DNA of 35,645 nt from a virus: IMG/VR virus record IMGVR_UViG_3300019360_000023, positions 1 through 35,645 of that record. One strand, written 5' to 3'. The notes beneath the pieces were generated by a model. It searched no databases and was not told the origin of the DNA. It saw only the letters and a program-made list of their open reading frames with translations. This document shows positions 1,993-30,502 of this stretch, one piece after another. The position numbers were made by a program, and so were the translations under genes. The stretch's first letter is position 1; each line of letters starts with the position of its first letter.

Positions 1993-4900
1993 CTACTTGT
2001 CCTCGCGCAGCCAGAGCGCGCTGTTCGGCGACACCGTGAGGCCGAGCGGCCAGTCCGTGTCCTCGGCGTTGTCGATCCGCGTCTCGTACGCGAACGACGT
2101 GCCCTCGCTCGAGCCGATCGGGTCGCCCTCGAGGAGCAGCTGCGTGTCGGAATCCACCTGCAGGATGGGATTCCAGTTCGTGTTGACCGCGCTGCCCGGG
2201 ATCCGGATCTCGAGGTTCGGATCGACCGGCGGCGTCGTGTGATCGCCTAGCAGGCCGCTCCGGTGCCAGCGCGTTCCGGTGCCGAGCACGATGCGGTTGC
2301 CGCCGCTCGTCGTCCCGAAGCGCGCGATGCCTTCGTGGTAGCCCTTCGAGCGCGAGTAGCGGACCTGGAGCTCGTACGAGTAAAGCCCGCCTGGCTGCAG
2401 ATCGAGGATCGAGATGTGCGGTGCGAAGTACTGGCCGCCGATCGAGATCCCGATCGGGTCGAGCACGAAGACGTCGCCGCCGTCCGCGCCGAGGTTCGGC
2501 GCCGTCGGGTTGCGCACGACGCGGTACTGGAACTGCGGGTGCAGGTGGATCGGGCGCTGTTGACCGGTCGCGCCGAAGACGCCGGCGTCGATGATCCCCT
2601 GGAAGAAGCCGCCGATGATGATCGTGCTGCGGCCGTTCGCGCTGTTGGGGTTCCCTTCGACGGTGATCGTCTGACGAAGGATCGTCTTCCAGAGATCCGC
2701 CTCGGCCGCGTTGAAGTCGAACACGCGGATCGAGCTTGCGGTGACCGCCTCGCTCATGTTCGAGAAGGCGTTGGGCTTCATCAGCGCGTTCGAGTGCCCG
2801 GCGTCGCCCTGCTTCTCGGCGATGACGGACTTCATCGGGACAGTGCGCCCGTCTTTCAGAACCGCTTTGACTCGGGCGCCAAGCTTCTTCTGCAGGCCGC
2901 GTTTGAAGACGCGCTGCTGGTCTTCGTACTGCTGCGCGGGCGTGTACCGGAGCTCACGGTGCCGCTGCTTGATCGCGCGCAGGATCTTGTTCGTGTCCGG
3001 GTCGTAGATCTCGACCTCGAACTCGCGCACCGCCGCGTCGATCTCGCCGTCGTTGCCAGCGCCGCCGGCCTCGCCGAAGGAGGGTTCATGGCCGAGGTCT
3101 GTCTCCGCAGAGATCGCGGGCTCGCGGAACGCGAGATGGAAGTCCGGCGTCGTCCAGGTCGTCGCCGGAAGGCCCGACGGACCAATGAACGAGAAGCCTC
3201 CTAAGAATGGGATGCTGAAGCCGCCGCCGAGACCGGGGACAAAGGGCCCGACGTTCGGAACGCCGAGCGCGTGCTGGTAGGTGATCGTCTCGGGCTCGCC
3301 GAGGCGCCCGAACGGGTCGAGCAGCCGCACGGTGATGTCGTAAGCAAGGAACTGCGGCGTGAACTCGTATGGCGACGCGTTGACGCGCGCGATCGATTGC
3401 AGGAGGCCCTGCCCGCGGATCTGCACGAGATAGGAAGAGCCCAGCGGCGCGGGCGTCGGCACCTGCCACGCGATCTGCATCGTCGGCGTACCCGACGCCG
3501 TGGGAGTTCCCGTCGCCGGCGCGACGCGGAGGTTAGTCACCTTGCCGACGAGGCCGATGCTCGCAACGCGCGTCAGCGATACCGGCTCACTGCGCTGCTT
3601 GTCGGCGCCGATCGCGCGCACCTGCACGTCCCAATCATCGTCGAGCGGCAGCGGCCCGATCGGCACCTCGACGCTCTGCCCGCCGATCGTCTCGAGGTGA
3701 TCGAACTGCGAGGGAGCGGCGCCGCGCGGGAAGGTGCGCCACGAGACTTCGTAGTGATCGACGTTCCCGCCGAGCGGGTTTGGCGCGACCGATAGGAAGT
3801 ACCGGATCCCCACGTCGTCCGTCTGCCCGACCGGTAGCGAAACGTCCGCGCGCACGCGCGGGGCCGAGAGGTAGACCTCCTCGTCCCCCGACCCGGTCTC
3901 CGTAACAAGCTCCGCCGCATCGTCGTCGAGACCCATCGCGGTCGGCGAAAGCGCCGCGACGCGAAAAGGCGTCGTCGTGTTCGAGAGCGTGAAGCCCGAG
4001 GCGGAGATGTACGTGTCGACGGCCATCCCGGCGGTCAAGAACGATCCGGCTCGCCGGAGCTGCGCCTGGCGCACGAAGCGCCCGCCAGCTGCCGCCTCCG
4101 TCACGGCCGCAGAATGCGTGATCGTGATGCCGTCGCCGCCGTTGCGCAGCGCGGTGATGGGCCACCAGCCCCGATTCTCGTCGCGGAAGCCGTCGCGCAG
4201 CTCGACCCAGCCCGAGGGCTGGAACGCCGCGAAGAGAAGTGCACCGACCGGGCCGTCGATGTGCGCGCTGCCGCCGGAAGGCGTGACCGAGAGCGACGCC
4301 AGCCCGGTGCCATGCGAGTCGACGTGGCAGGTGATCGTCCCCGTGCGGAAGGCGCCGACCAGCTGCTCGTCGCCGCCCGCGGCCTCGGTGACGAGCGTGA
4401 CGCCTGTTACGGAGAGTGACGTTGCGGCCACTGCCGAGACCACAGCCGCCGCAACGTTGTTGGCGGCGTTTGCGAAGCCCGAGCTGCGCACACGCATGCC
4501 GACCTGAAAGCCGTCGGTGATGAAGGAGCCCGATGCGCGCGTGAACGTGCCCGGCGCGGTCGCGCTGATCGAGGCGACGCCCGTAATCACTTCGACACGG
4601 ACAGCCGTGATCTCAGGGCGGCCAGGCGGCGCGCCCGTGTTGGCGAAGGTCGAGCGCCGGCGGCCGAGCGACGACGCGAAGTTCGGGACCGGCTGCAGGT
4701 CGATTGTGTCAAACAGCTCGGGCGCGTGATCGCGGCAGATCAGCTTGCCGTTGAAGTTGCCCTGGGCGATCTCGCTGCGCTTCTTTTCGATGCCCTCGAC
4801 GACGAGCTCCTGCGTCTGCTGAGCGAACTCGCCGAGAACGACGCTCACGCCGCGCGCCGCGCCCGCCTGGATCCAGGTCGAGCCGTCGACCGTCGTCTGG

Positions 4901-23685: not shown

Positions 23686-25014
23686 TCAGAAGCGGACGCC
23701 GACCGCCTGCCGCGGCCGCGACGAGAGCGTTGCGAACGCCCCCGAGGCCGCGTCGACCTGGTCGTCGTGCGAGCCGTCCGGGAACGCCTCGAGCTCGTCG
23801 AGAAACGCCGAGATCCACGTTCCGCGTAACAACCGCACGTTGCCGATCTGCGCCTGCGAAGCGAGCGGGCCCGCGCGTGTGAACTTGTCGCCGGTCTTGC
23901 GGTCGCCGCTCACGGTCCAGCCGGAGAGGAGATCGCGCACGAGGTACTCGACCTGCGATTTCCCCGACGCGCCGGGCTCCTGCTCTATCACGATGGGAAG
24001 GCCGCGGCCGTCGAGCTCGGCGACCGCTCGAATCGCCTTGTCACGCTCGCCCGGCCGAGCGCGCAGCCGGCGCACGTCCGCGATGTAGAGGGCGCCATCG
24101 GAGCCGCGGTGCATCCGGCAGCTTGCCGTCCAGTCCGGATCCGTGGCCTCGGCATTCGGTTCGGTCGCCGCGAGGTCCCAGTAGCGGACGCCGGGCGCGC
24201 CGGCGGGCAGCGCATCGACGATCGAGGAGAACCACTCGCGCCGGAAGAGCGCGCCGACCGATCGCGCCGTCCAGTCGCCGTCCTCGAGCTGCCGGCGCGT
24301 GACCGGATCGAGATTCGCGAGACTGGCGGCGTAATCCTCGCGATCGAGAAACGCGTTGTCGGCCATCGTCGCCGGCACGAAGGGACGATCGGGGCGCCCT
24401 TCCGGAAGCGCGAAGCGCGCGCGCACCCAGTCGTGACCCTCGCCGCCGGGATTACTGGCCGCGCGGATCCGGAGCGGAACGGCCGAGCCCTTCAGGCGCC
24501 GAAGCCGGGAGAACAGATAGCGGTACTGCGACTCGGCGAACTGCGTGAGCTCGTCGAAGCCGATGTACGCGTACTCGGCGGACTGGTAGTTGTGCTTGTC
24601 GTCCTCGTGCTGTAGGTGGCCGAACTCGAGCGTCGCGCCGCTCGGGAACGTCCAGCGCATGTTCGCGCCGTTCCAGACTGCCGGGGTTGCGGAGAGCCAG
24701 GCCTTCGCGCGGGCAACGAGGCCATTGGCCTTCTCGAGCTGCGCGAACGTGCGCCGGAGCAGCAGTGCGGCGTAGCCCGGCACGTCGACGTACTGGAGAG
24801 CGCCCATCAGCAGCCAGTCGCTCTTCCCGCCGCCGGCGGCTCCGCCGTAGAGGATCTCGCGATGGGGGAGCAGCAGCGCGGCGATCTGCTTCGGGAACGG
24901 CTGATGCGGGCAGAAACCAGAGGCCATGCGCGGCGTGAGCAGGTGCGCGAGGCGCGCGCGCTTCGCGGGCGAAAGCGCGGCGACCTGCGCCGGGGTGACG
25001 GTGGGCCAGGCCAT
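23686..25014 (-). CDS. terL: Terminase large subunit (packaging ATPase-nuclease)
   Basis: 442 residues. Walker A is GGAAGGGKS (57-65) and Walker B is YIGFDE (150-155), with the adjacent TQFAESQYRYLFSRLR helix. The C-terminal RNase H-like nuclease has YWDLAATEP (D280), IVIEQEPGASGK (E344) and GSHDDQVDAAS (D417/D418), a full set of acidic metal ligands. This enzyme pumps DNA into the prohead through the portal and cuts concatemers. It starts four bases below the terS stop, and the portal GTG follows 17 bases after its stop. All key residues are present, so packaging should work. Confidence 0.95.
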   Translation of the reverse strand: MAWPTVTPAQVAALSPAKRARLAHLLTPRMASGFCPHQPFPKQIAALLLPHREILYGGAAGGGKSDWLLMGALQYVDVPGYAALLLRRTFAQLEKANGLVARAKAWLSATPAVWNGANMRWTFPSGATLEFGHLQHEDDKHNYQSAEYAYIGFDELTQFAESQYRYLFSRLRRLKGSAVPLRIRAASNPGGEGHDWVRARFALPEGRPDRPFVPATMADNAFLDREDYAASLANLDPVTRRQLEDGDWTARSVGALFRREWFSSIVDALPAGAPGVRYWDLAATEPNAEATDPDWTASCRMHRGSDGALYIADVRRLRARPGERDKAIRAVAELDGRGLPIVIEQEPGASGKSQVEYLVRDLLSGWTVSGDRKTGDKFTRAGPLASQAQIGNVRLLRGTWISAFLDELEAFPDGSHDDQVDAASGAFATLSSRPRQAVGVRF

Positions 25015-25018
25015 GGGC

Positions 25019-25648
25019 CTAATGAGTCGTCGGAGGCGGCTCGGCTGGCGGCGGGTTCGTGTAGGCGCCGAGCAGGCGCGCGATCTCGGCGAGCACCGCG
25101 GGATTGTCGCCGATGTCCAGCGTCACCGGGACACCGTTCGGGAAGTCGACGCTCTTCTGCTCCTTGAACGCGAGCACGCTGACGTGCTTCCCGATGTCCT
25201 CGAGCACGCGCAGCCGGTCGATTATGCGCACCTTCTTCGTGACGAGGCCGCCCGGCGCGTCGATCACTTCGAAGGAGGCGACGAGCTTCGCCGCAGCGTC
25301 CGAGAGCTCGTGGATCGGCCGCAACTGGCCATCCGGCCGGAAGATCGCGCGCACGTCGACGCGCCAGAGATCGGCGAGCTCGCGCAGCACCCAGGCCGCG
25401 TCGATCGCGGCCTTCTCGGTGACGGTCTTCTCGCGCGCCCGCATCGCGGTGAGCAGCGCGTCGCGCACGTGGGGGAGCGCGAGCAGCGTCGACGCCTTGT
25501 TCTTCGCCGTCGCCGCGGAATAGCCCGCGCGCACGGCCGCGTGCGCGCCGATCCCGTCGACGAGGTACTCCTCGATGAACCGCTTCTGGCGCTCGGTGAG
25601 GCGCGGCTTTCGGCTGCGCTTCGCCGGCGCGCCGCGTGACCGCGCCAT
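25019..25648 (-). CDS. terS: Terminase small subunit
   Basis: 209 residues from the ATG at 25648, with GAAGGGG about eight bases upstream. The basic N-terminus (MARSRGAPAKRSRKP) leads into TERQKRFIEEYLVDGIGAHAA, VRAGYSAATAKNKAS and LLALPHVRDAL, the signature helix-turn-helix region of Terminase_2 family small subunits. A central helical oligomerisation part and a Pro-rich C-terminus follow. TerS recognises the packaging start on DNA and regulates TerL. A 274-bp non-coding stretch with phased repeats lies directly upstream and could be its binding site. A longer open frame upstream runs through the repeats and is rejected. Confidence 0.92.
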   Translation of the reverse strand: MARSRGAPAKRSRKPRLTERQKRFIEEYLVDGIGAHAAVRAGYSAATAKNKASTLLALPHVRDALLTAMRAREKTVTEKAAIDAAWVLRELADLWRVDVRAIFRPDGQLRPIHELSDAAAKLVASFEVIDAPGGLVTKKVRIIDRLRVLEDIGKHVSVLAFKEQKSVDFPNGVPVTLDIGDNPAVLAEIARLLGAYTNPPPAEPPPTTH

Positions 25649-25720
25649 GCCGGACCCCTTCGCCGCGCCTGCGGCTGCGCCCGGCTCGAGTCCATGCGCG
25701 CACGGGGCGGATCGTGGGCA

Positions 25721-25729
25721 CCTATACCA
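25721..25729 (-). promoter_or_regulatory. Candidate extended -10 promoter for packaging/late genes
   Basis: The minus strand reads TGGTATAGG, a TGn extended -10 with four of six bases of TATAAT, about 75 bases before the terS ATG. No good -35 is seen at 17 bp; instead the phased boxes lie immediately upstream, which would suit an activator-dependent promoter. Sequence match only. Confidence 0.3.
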
Positions 25730-25748
25730 CGTCTCCTCCGAGGCTCGC

Positions 25749-25896
25749 GACGCGTCGGGACGCGTGCAGACGTCTAACGACGCGTCGCGCCCAATAAAGT
25801 GCGGTCGCGACGCGTGACGACGTGTCGCGACGCGTCGTGCACGTTTCGCGCGTTTCGCGGGCAATCGGGTCGCGTCGCGACGCCTCGCGGCGCGTC
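25749..25896. repeat. Phased array of GACGCGTC-like boxes, 10-bp register
   Basis: Boxes begin at 25749 (GACGCGTC), 25759 (GACGCGTG), 25769 (GACGTCTA), 25779 (GACGCGTC), 25809 (GACGCGTG), 25819 (GACGTGTC), 25829 (GACGCGTC), 25869 (GTCGCGTC), 25879 (GACGCCTC) and 25889 (GGCGCGTC). Every start is a multiple of 10 from the first, about one helical turn, so all boxes face the same side of the DNA. GACGCGTC is itself palindromic. It lies between an excisionase-like HTH gene and terS. Possible roles: packaging site bound by TerS, activator sites for a late promoter, or replication iterons. Confidence 0.75.
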
Positions 25897-25922
25897 GCGC
25901 GCTCCACGTGGAACCGCGGCGA

Positions 25923-26135
25923 TCAGGCCGAGGCCGCAGCACCCTCCTTGCGCTTCGCGATGAAGGCGTCGAGCTCGCTGCGCTCGATCCGCCACAGGGG
26001 CCGCCCGGTGTAGCGCTTGCGACCGACCTGGATCGCGCGGAGCTCGCCGCCGCGGATCCACGCCAGCACGAGGCGCACGGAGACGTCGAGCTCCTTCGCC
26101 GCCTCCTTCACGCCGAGCAGCGCGCGCACGCTCAT
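25923..26135 (-). CDS. Excisionase/MerR-like HTH DNA-binding protein
   Basis: 70 residues from the ATG at 26135, overlapping the upstream stop by ATGA. LLGVKEAAKELDVSVRLVLA then WIRGGELRAIQVGRKR and PLWRIERSELDAFIAKRK is the winged-helix pattern of the excisionase family (helix-turn-helix 17): the V..AWIR segment is the recognition helix and the wing carries R/K residues. Such small proteins act as excisionases or transcription regulators. It is the last gene before the phased array and candidate late promoter, so it could bind there. No integrase is present in the window to pair with. Confidence 0.8.
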   Translation of the reverse strand: MSVRALLGVKEAAKELDVSVRLVLAWIRGGELRAIQVGRKRYTGRPLWRIERSELDAFIAKRKEGAAASA

Positions 26136-28002: not shown

Positions 28003-28406
28003 AGGAACGCCTCCGCGCGGATCAGCTCGACACCGCGCGCGCGGATCCGCTCGTGCAGGTGCTCCTCGCCGCGCTCGCTCGCGCTCTCGAGTTCCGCGAA
28101 AACCTCGTCGGGGACGAGCACGCGCTGCGGAGTGGGTGCGCGGAGCGCGGGCGCTGCGACCGGCCGCTCCGCGCGGCGCGCGGGCTCGAATTCGCCGCGA
28201 AGGATCGCCGCGAGCCGGTCCTCGAGCTCCGGGTACTGTGCAACGAACGCCTCGAGCTCGAGCCGCTCCGCCGCGCACGCACGTTGGCACGCGGGCTCGG
28301 CGCACCAGTACGTCGCTGGCTCCACGATCGACCAGCACCAGCGGCAGCGCGGCCAGGGTTCGTACGGGATCGCCGGCTTGTACGGCTCGCGGATGAAGCG
28401 CGACAT
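27999..28406 (-). CDS. Cys-rich putative zinc-binding protein
   Basis: 135 residues. Residues 20-45 have CRWCW, YWCAEPAC and ACAAE, giving four to five cysteines spaced like a zinc ribbon. The remainder is helical and acidic (LEAFVAQYPELEDRLAAIL; AELESASERGEEHLHERI). The ATG overlaps the replication gene stop as TGATG, and its stop overlaps the GTG of the next gene as GTGA. It may act on DNA together with the replication protein upstream. No family recognised. Confidence 0.7.
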   Translation of the reverse strand: MSRFIREPYKPAIPYEPWPRCRWCWSIVEPATYWCAEPACQRACAAERLELEAFVAQYPELEDRLAAILRGEFEPARRAERPVAAPALRAPTPQRVLVPDEVFAELESASERGEEHLHERIRARGVELIRAEAFL

Positions 28407-29197
28407 CAGGCAGCGACCTCCTTGAAGCCGAGGTCGATCTCGCGCTCGCGGGCCACGCGCTTCATCGTGCCGACGAAGTACGCGGTCGGGTTGCTGACGA
28501 TGCCGTCTCGAAAGCGGCTCCAGGCCTCGTAGACCGCGGTCTCGATCTCCGGCCAGGGCAGCAGGGTCACGATCGCTCGGAGGTTTCGATCGTCTGTGCT
28601 TCGGTCGCGAAGGCGCACGCGAAGCTCTTCGACGCGGGCTGCGATCTCGCCCTCGTGATCCGGTTCCGGGGTTCCGGTGGACGATTGTAAACCGCCGTCG
28701 CCGGCCGTTTCCGGTGGAGTCTTGTTATCGCAAGAGGAAGAGACGGTTGTCTTCTCGATCTTTGCAGAAGAAGAGGAACGGTTAGGAACGGTACGGTTAG
28801 GAGGGGCGTTGACCGGGCGCTCAGCGGGTGGTGACGGGGCGTTGACCGGGCGCTTAGCGCCCGGTGACCGGACACCGAGTTGTTGTGTTTCCGAGAACTT
28901 GGGCCACTCGATGAGCGTAAAGCCGTTGGCAAGCGGCTTTACATTCATACTCACTTCACGCGCCAACGCACGCATCGCTTCGAGAGCCGCGGAAACCGAT
29001 TCGCAGCCCGTGATGGTGAGCAAATCGCCCGGCTGCAGGCGCACGGTGCAGGCCTGCTCCGGAGTGAGTCCGTCCGAAGCCCAGCGGTCCATCATGTGCA
29101 TCCCGAGCATCGCGAGCGTGAGCTTCTGCTCGCGCGACCAGGGCTCGCGGTAGACGCTGCACTCGAGCGCGAACCACCGCTTGCGCAGACTCGCCAC
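28406..29197 (-). CDS. Replication initiator / replisome organiser-like protein
   Basis: 263 residues from a GTG at 29197. The N-terminus (RKRWFALECSVYREPWSREQ, DRWASDGLTPEQACTVRL, and a winged-helix-like LLTITGCESVSAALEAM) fits phage replication proteins with an N-terminal HTH domain. A Pro/Asn/Ser-rich linker follows (about 110-165; RPVNAP appears twice, then PNRTVPNRSS), and a C-terminal helical domain (LPWPEIETAVYEAWSRFRDG). The linker DNA holds iteron-like repeats and a hairpin, as in lambda gene O, where the origin lies inside the initiator gene. No helicase or loader gene is recognised nearby. Assignment by layout and pattern, not by a family signature. Confidence 0.6.
   Translation of the reverse strand: MASLRKRWFALECSVYREPWSREQKLTLAMLGMHMMDRWASDGLTPEQACTVRLQPGDLLTITGCESVSAALEAMRALAREVSMNVKPLANGFTLIEWPKFSETQQLGVRSPGAKRPVNAPSPPAERPVNAPPNRTVPNRSSSSAKIEKTTVSSSCDNKTPPETAGDGGLQSSTGTPEPDHEGEIAARVEELRVRLRDRSTDDRNLRAIVTLLPWPEIETAVYEAWSRFRDGIVSNPTAYFVGTMKRVAREREIDLGFKEVAA
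28774..28871. repeat. Iteron-like repeats and palindrome, candidate origin
   Basis: Within the replication gene: AGGAACGGT at 28774 and 28784 (10 bp apart), CGGTTAGGA at 28779 and 28794, GGGGCGTTGACCGGGCGCT at 28803 and 28836 (33 bp apart), and a perfect 9-bp inverted repeat ACCGGGCGC TTA GCGCCCGGT at 28845-28865. Such clusters inside an initiator gene are typical of phage origins. The protein-level repeat RPVNAP could also explain the 33-bp pair. Confidence 0.45.
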
Positions 29198-30430: not shown

Positions 30431-30502
30431 TGGTAGCGGGGGTGGGAATTGAACCCACGCGAATCGGGTTATGAGCCCGATTGGCCTCCGTGGCTCCCCG
30501 CA
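30431..30502 (-). tRNA. tRNA-Met (anticodon CAT), initiator-like, short D-arm
   Basis: 72 bases with an encoded CCA (30431-30433 on the plus strand). Anticodon arm TCGGG-CTCATAA-CCCGA gives anticodon CAT. T arm is GTGGG-TTCAATT-CCCAC. The acceptor pairs GCGGGG with CCCCGC; the first position is T opposite T, unpaired. Positions 29-31 are GGG and 39-41 CCC. Both the unpaired 1:72 and the three G:C pairs are initiator tRNA features. The D-arm is small (GCC-ACGGA-GGC) and U8 is missing, so the fold is non-standard. The opposite-frame gene above ends inside it. Isoleucine (CAT with lysidine) is an alternative identity. Confidence 0.8.

Follow-up and report, generated by a model that had tools for sequence, protein, structure and literature searches.

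A phased 10-bp direct repeat upstream of the terminase genes of a GC-rich phage, candidate operator for an adjacent HTH_17 protein

Between the gene for a 70-residue HTH_17 protein and the small terminase gene of a phage, we found an array of 10-bp direct repeats that keeps a single register. The array is real and very probably selected for position, and a homologous array stands at the same place in a related phage (IMGVR_UViG_3300037465_000701, designated L041). Most likely, and with about an even chance in our estimate, it is an operator for the adjacent HTH_17 protein, which would contact the DNA at each helical turn and act on the terS operon as its late regulator.

Results

Gene order around the array

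The DNA analysed is virus record IMGVR_UViG_3300019360_000023, positions 1 to 35,645, and "the window" designates this whole stretch of 35,645 bases. It is a phage of a GC-rich host and has a GC content of 69%; genes for the head, the tail and packaging lie on the minus strand (Table 1). The HTH_17 gene is the last of the operon upstream of the terS operon, and 274 bases separate its stop (25923) from the terS ATG (25648). This is the longest gap from terL to about 32.4 kb, a region in which the other genes overlap or nearly touch, and outside which gene calls are less certain. The array lies inside this gap, which bears out the non-coding location given to it in a first-pass annotation made from the sequence alone.

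Other features of the window were recorded on the way. The closest named relatives of TerL are those of the methanogen (archaeal) viruses psiM2/psiM100, at about 51% identity, which is unusual for a GC-rich phage. A tRNA-Met(cat) gene (30431-30502, minus strand) was the sole match of an Rfam search. Two copies of a 33-bp repeat, 87% alike and with the look of a stem-loop as DNA, are present at 28803-28868, within a minus-strand reading frame (28406-29197) where they apparently form a low-complexity linker.

Table 1. Features around the array (window coordinates).
Feature	Position	Strand	Basis
terL, large terminase subunit	23686..25014	-	phrog_979 E 2.2e-123
terS, small terminase subunit (Terminase_2)	25019..25648	-	PF03592 E 3.1e-24; phrog_51; SF6 TerS 3ZQP/3ZQQ E 8.6e-11
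terS leader with conserved blocks (CGAGCCGGGCGCAGCC; AGGCGCGGCG; 20/21 identical at 25700-25720)	25655..25720	-	alignment to L041
Putative extended -10 (TGGTATAGG), weak	25721..25729	-	sequence; altered in L041 and missed by the promoter scan
Array of 16 continuous 10-bp units, consensus ACGCGTCGCG	25740..25899	+	T at unit position 6 in 16/16 (25745, 25755 ... 25895); homologous array in L041
Array portion nearest the putative promoter, most similar to L041 (CTCGCGACGCGTCGGGACGCGTGCAGACGTCTAAC)	25744..25778	+	gapless alignment
Short hairpin GTTCC-ACGT-GGAGC between HTH_17 gene and array	25901..25914	-	sequence; L041 counterpart GGTTCC-ACGG-GGAACC
70-residue HTH_17 (MerR/excisionase-like winged HTH) protein, proposed binder	25923..26135	-	PF12728 E 1.8e-12; phrog_66; 4J2N E 0.0028

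A continuous direct repeat in a 10-bp register

The first-pass annotation had listed ten palindromic boxes in an exact 10-bp register, separated in places by gaps of whole turns. All ten are indeed in one register and nine have at most one mismatch to GACGCGTC, but the tenth (25769, GACGTCTA) has three. The register is also kept across the supposed gaps, which consist of degenerate units with T at position 6, and the array is continuous. The six units beyond the listed boxes (GAGGCTCGCG, CCCAATAAAG, TGCGGTCGCG, CACGTTTCGC, GCGTTTCGCG, GGCAATCGGG) each carry this T. As to symmetry, the best units are palindromic, but conservation is oriented: T is always kept, whereas the A at position 1 that completes the palindrome is found in 8 of 15 units. 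The array thus has a direction, and is best viewed as a single uninterrupted direct repeat whose units range from good to poor.

Dinucleotide shuffles, the control proposed with the annotation, do not match this register. The lag-10 self-match of 25740-25909 is 0.475, versus 0.294 +/- 0.042 in the shuffles, and none of 20,000 reached it. Nine boxes in a single phase occurred in 0 of 3,000 shuffles, and T at position 6 in 15 of the 16 units in 0 of 20,000. Column information over 15 units was 7.3 bits, compared to 1.5 +/- 0.5 in shuffles (0/20,000). Among 209 sequences (1.96 Mb), no run of a single rare base at a spacing of 9 to 12 is stronger than this array. The signal is local, as GACGCGTC-like words are not enriched over the whole window (53 versus 89 expected). 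When the unit matrix was scanned over the window, L041 and the remainder of the L041 record, no further array appeared.

The array in a related phage

L041 was the sole near relative found, with identities of 81% for TerL, 69% for the HTH_17 protein and 63% for TerS, and its gene order is identical. Its array, at 4164-4273, aligns with window positions 25740-25849, sharing place and register, without insertions or deletions in 110 bp and with 81 of these 110 positions identical (74%). Motif and register thus recur in a relative, the comparison that had been suggested for them: T is present in 9/11 units, and the L041 array is significant alone, its score being reached in 0 of 10,000 shuffles. 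The promoter-proximal third is nearly identical in the two phages. From array to hairpin, the L041 stretch is shorter by exactly 50 bp, or five units, and the difference is at the promoter-distal end. The register is therefore kept where units are degenerate, recurs in another phage and survives a length difference of 50 bp, which supports the earlier suggestion of selection on position. In the comparison of the two phages, the T column (9/11) is kept no better than the other columns; the evidence for the T itself comes from comparing units with one another, and these share descent.

The array is known from these two genomes only, a narrow basis for the comparison. Searches of viral contigs with TerS, TerL, the HTH_17 protein and the next upstream gene gave no other near relative, and genome contigs plus 379 genomes of L170's phylum gave distant TerL or TerS only, with no array in those checked. 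The DNA patterns ACGATCCGCCCCGTGCG and GACGCGTGCAGACGTC matched L041 plus chance matches without array, and no similar DNA was found in the phage collection. No phased array lies near the HTH_17 relatives in Arthrobacter phage Shoya and L121, nor upstream of the terminase genes of psiM2, the closest named phage by TerL.

The two candidate binders

The first-pass annotation had named TerS and the HTH_17 protein as possible binders, and a one-turn period is expected from either. Both are still candidates, with the sequence comparisons favouring the HTH_17 protein. Its gene directly adjoins the array in both phages, and it is the only HTH_17 in the record. It is 70 residues long, consists of the winged HTH only, and scores 47.7 bits against PF12728 (curated cut-off 27), its L041 homologue being also above the cut-off. 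The profile match in the PDB is to Pukovnik Xis (4J2N), and phrog_66 is labelled "excisionase and transcriptional regulator". Phage HTH_17 proteins are usually labelled excisionases, which counts against a role as late regulator.

Structural searches were made with a predicted model of low confidence (pLDDT 68). Pukovnik Xis, RacA and BldC came out as its top fold matches, each of them weak because the model is poor; Foldseek listed BldC (6AMA/6AMK) at E 0.2-0.4. With VIA-align, unrelated folds led the list, BldC was absent from it and nothing usable came out.

The presumed recognition helices, counted by eye on the alignments, differ in conservation. Between the two phages, that of the HTH_17 protein goes from VSVRLVLAWIRGGEL to VSTRLVRAWIESGEL, with 11/15 residues identical, whereas that of TerS goes from AATAKNKASTLL to PRSAKQVSARVL, with 3/12 identical. 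As the unit motif is unchanged, this favours the HTH_17 protein, although the contrast would weigh less if TerS, as seems to be the case for SF6 TerS, recognises DNA by shape alone. Over its length, TerS has 36/72 identical residues in the N-terminal DNA-binding part and 80/90 in the core, which suggests fast change or exchange of the DNA-binding domain.

The terS leader and the candidate promoter

An extended -10 had been proposed between array and terS. It is weak, being not clearly conserved (TGGTATAGG in the window, TGGTACATC in L041), and a promoter scan of both phages found no consensus sigma-70 promoter and missed the proposed -10 as well. If the -10 is at 25726-25721, the predicted start is near 25714 and the array extends from about -31 to about -185. 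The promoter is the weakest link of the operator proposal.

The leader that follows is conserved in blocks, and may be a packaging cut region or a regulator site. The blocks do not appear to be coding, as substitutions in the TerS frame fall mostly at codon positions 1 and 2. RNA folding of the leader gave nothing unusual.

Discussion

A proposed operator of the late operon

We propose that the array is the operator of the late operon (terS, terL, capsid, tail) and that it is bound by the HTH_17 protein of 70 residues, the product of the last gene of the preceding operon, which lies immediately upstream. Once enough of this protein is made, protomers would bind head to tail, one per 10-bp turn, on the same face of the DNA. 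Binding would nucleate on good units and then cooperatively cross poor ones, giving a filament from about -31, beside the promoter, to about -185. Such a filament would bend the DNA and most likely recruit RNA polymerase to a promoter without recognisable -35 element. The array with its register and orientation, its presence in L041, the gene order and the protein family are observed; we infer the binding, the filament and the sign of the regulation (activation rather than repression). Gene order, the contrast between the recognition helices and the known filament-forming relatives favour this binder. The five-unit difference being promoter-distal, while the promoter-proximal part is best conserved, also supports an operator. 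A fuller version is more tentative: an Xis/BldC-like HTH_17 protein might have been recruited as late activator, forming along the terS promoter a filament in which up to 16 protomers each occupy one helical turn, and this filament or the array might also mark the DNA for packaging.

The main rival is that the array is a pac site, or part of one, at which DNA would wrap a TerS ring with HTH domains set at intervals of about one turn, and TerL would cut nearby, perhaps in the leader. An SPP1/SF6-type terS is encoded beside the array, and its Terminase_2 product is homologous to SF6 TerS including the DNA-binding domain. The pac site of SPP1 has direct repeats and overlaps the late promoters PL1/PL2 and the terS start (PMC6316719; PMC4737164); from one HTH motif of the TerS ring to the next is about one turn of B-DNA, and wrapping has been put forward as a model (PMC4737164). 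The unusual conservation of the leader between array and terS would also fit. We nevertheless regard a pac site as possible rather than probable, because the TerS recognition helix has changed while the motif was conserved, and because the array goes from 16 to 11 units between phages although the ring should not change. Moreover, DNA binding by the SF6 domain is weak and independent of sequence, and the pac DNA of SPP1/SF6 contains AT runs instead of a GC-rich 10-bp consensus (PMC4737164). Operator and pac site do not exclude each other, since both share one place in SPP1.

Other explanations appear less probable. Several bacterial regulators typically use tandem 9-11-bp direct repeats. A host nucleoid or response-regulator-type protein binding a phased direct repeat at the late promoter would fit such a habit, and response regulators are mentioned in PMC5859096; this is improbable, given that each of the two phages encodes, beside the array, a DNA-binding protein of its own that belongs to a repeat-binding family. 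An Xis-type accessory array for excision would agree with the phrog_66 label and with the tyrosine integrase in the L041 record. However, no integrase was found in the window, and that of L041 sits at the other end of the record, some 16 kb away from the array, and has no phased array in its vicinity, so that excision is unlikely as the main role. An origin or partition site is likewise opposed by its neighbours, none of which is a replication or partition gene, and we rate this pair of readings as very improbable. The tyrosine integrase of the L041 lineage is placed at the L225 end (G003:C1:27915-28397); since the L041 record carries it, the lineage is probably temperate, and the window record probably ends short of the integrase. 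Finally, the array could be a decayed 10-bp minisatellite without function. Slippage would account for a length change by whole units, and the array, at 74% identity, is conserved about as well as the third codon positions of the terS core (78%). This is the explanation to which we give least credence, as T and register are kept in units otherwise stripped of the motif, the 110 bp aligned between phages have no insertions or deletions, and the promoter-proximal part is nearly identical.

If the proposed operator is true, a family known mostly for control of excision and for sporulation has a further role in driving phage late transcription. Filament growth, tolerance of degenerate sites and promoter activation could then be measured jointly at a single natural site of 160 bp. 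If instead the pac site is right, the array is an unusually regular natural sequence for the model of wrapping around a small-terminase ring, with one contact per turn.

Comparison with known systems

The array resembles the SPP1/SF6 pac sites in its homologous TerS and in having repeats at the promoter and terS start (PMC4737164; PMC6316719). It differs in that no long uniform 10-bp register is described there, the DNA is rich in AT runs and the TerS domain is without sequence specificity. With the recombination directionality factors Xis and RdfS of phages, the candidate binder shares the HTH_17 family, and these form head-to-tail filaments on DNA; Xis, like BldC, binds in this way along repeats and copes with degenerate sites; RdfS, Xis and BldC have been grouped as HTH_17-type filament formers, with bound BldC molecules one DNA turn apart (PMC11963761). 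The array here, however, is not beside an integrase or a known attP.

BldC operators in Streptomyces (whiI, smeA-sffA) are also similar: BldC is a small stand-alone MerR-like winged HTH that binds head to tail to directional 9-bp repeats of variable number, forms filaments and tolerates degenerate units (PMC5859096). The geometry of the array would fit one such protomer per turn. Its repeats are AT-rich and come in two to four units, whereas those described here are of 10 bp and GC-rich, and BldC serves Streptomyces development, not phage late genes.

The nearest layout is that of known late promoters, and the first-pass view that late promoters of this kind are undescribed does not hold. Alt of lactococcal phage TP901-1 and Ltr of Staphylococcus aureus phage Phi13 use sets of four imperfect direct repeats that precede the late promoter, and the gene for the activator lies just upstream; Alt occupies -76 to -32, and Ltr depends on repeats from -107 to -42 (PMC13123087). 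As with Alt, Ltr and RinA, the candidate regulator gene in the window and in L041 ends the preceding cluster, directly upstream of a putative late promoter. Direct repeats are present as well, though next to a promoter that is only putative. The proximal edge of the array, at about -31, matches the Alt layout if the -10 is at 25726-25721. The protein, however, matches HTH_17 and excisionase families only, and not those of Alt, Ltr or RinA, and the GC-rich array has 16 (or 11) units instead of four. The differences from the known late-promoter repeats lie in the family of the protein, in how many units there are and in how strictly the register is kept.
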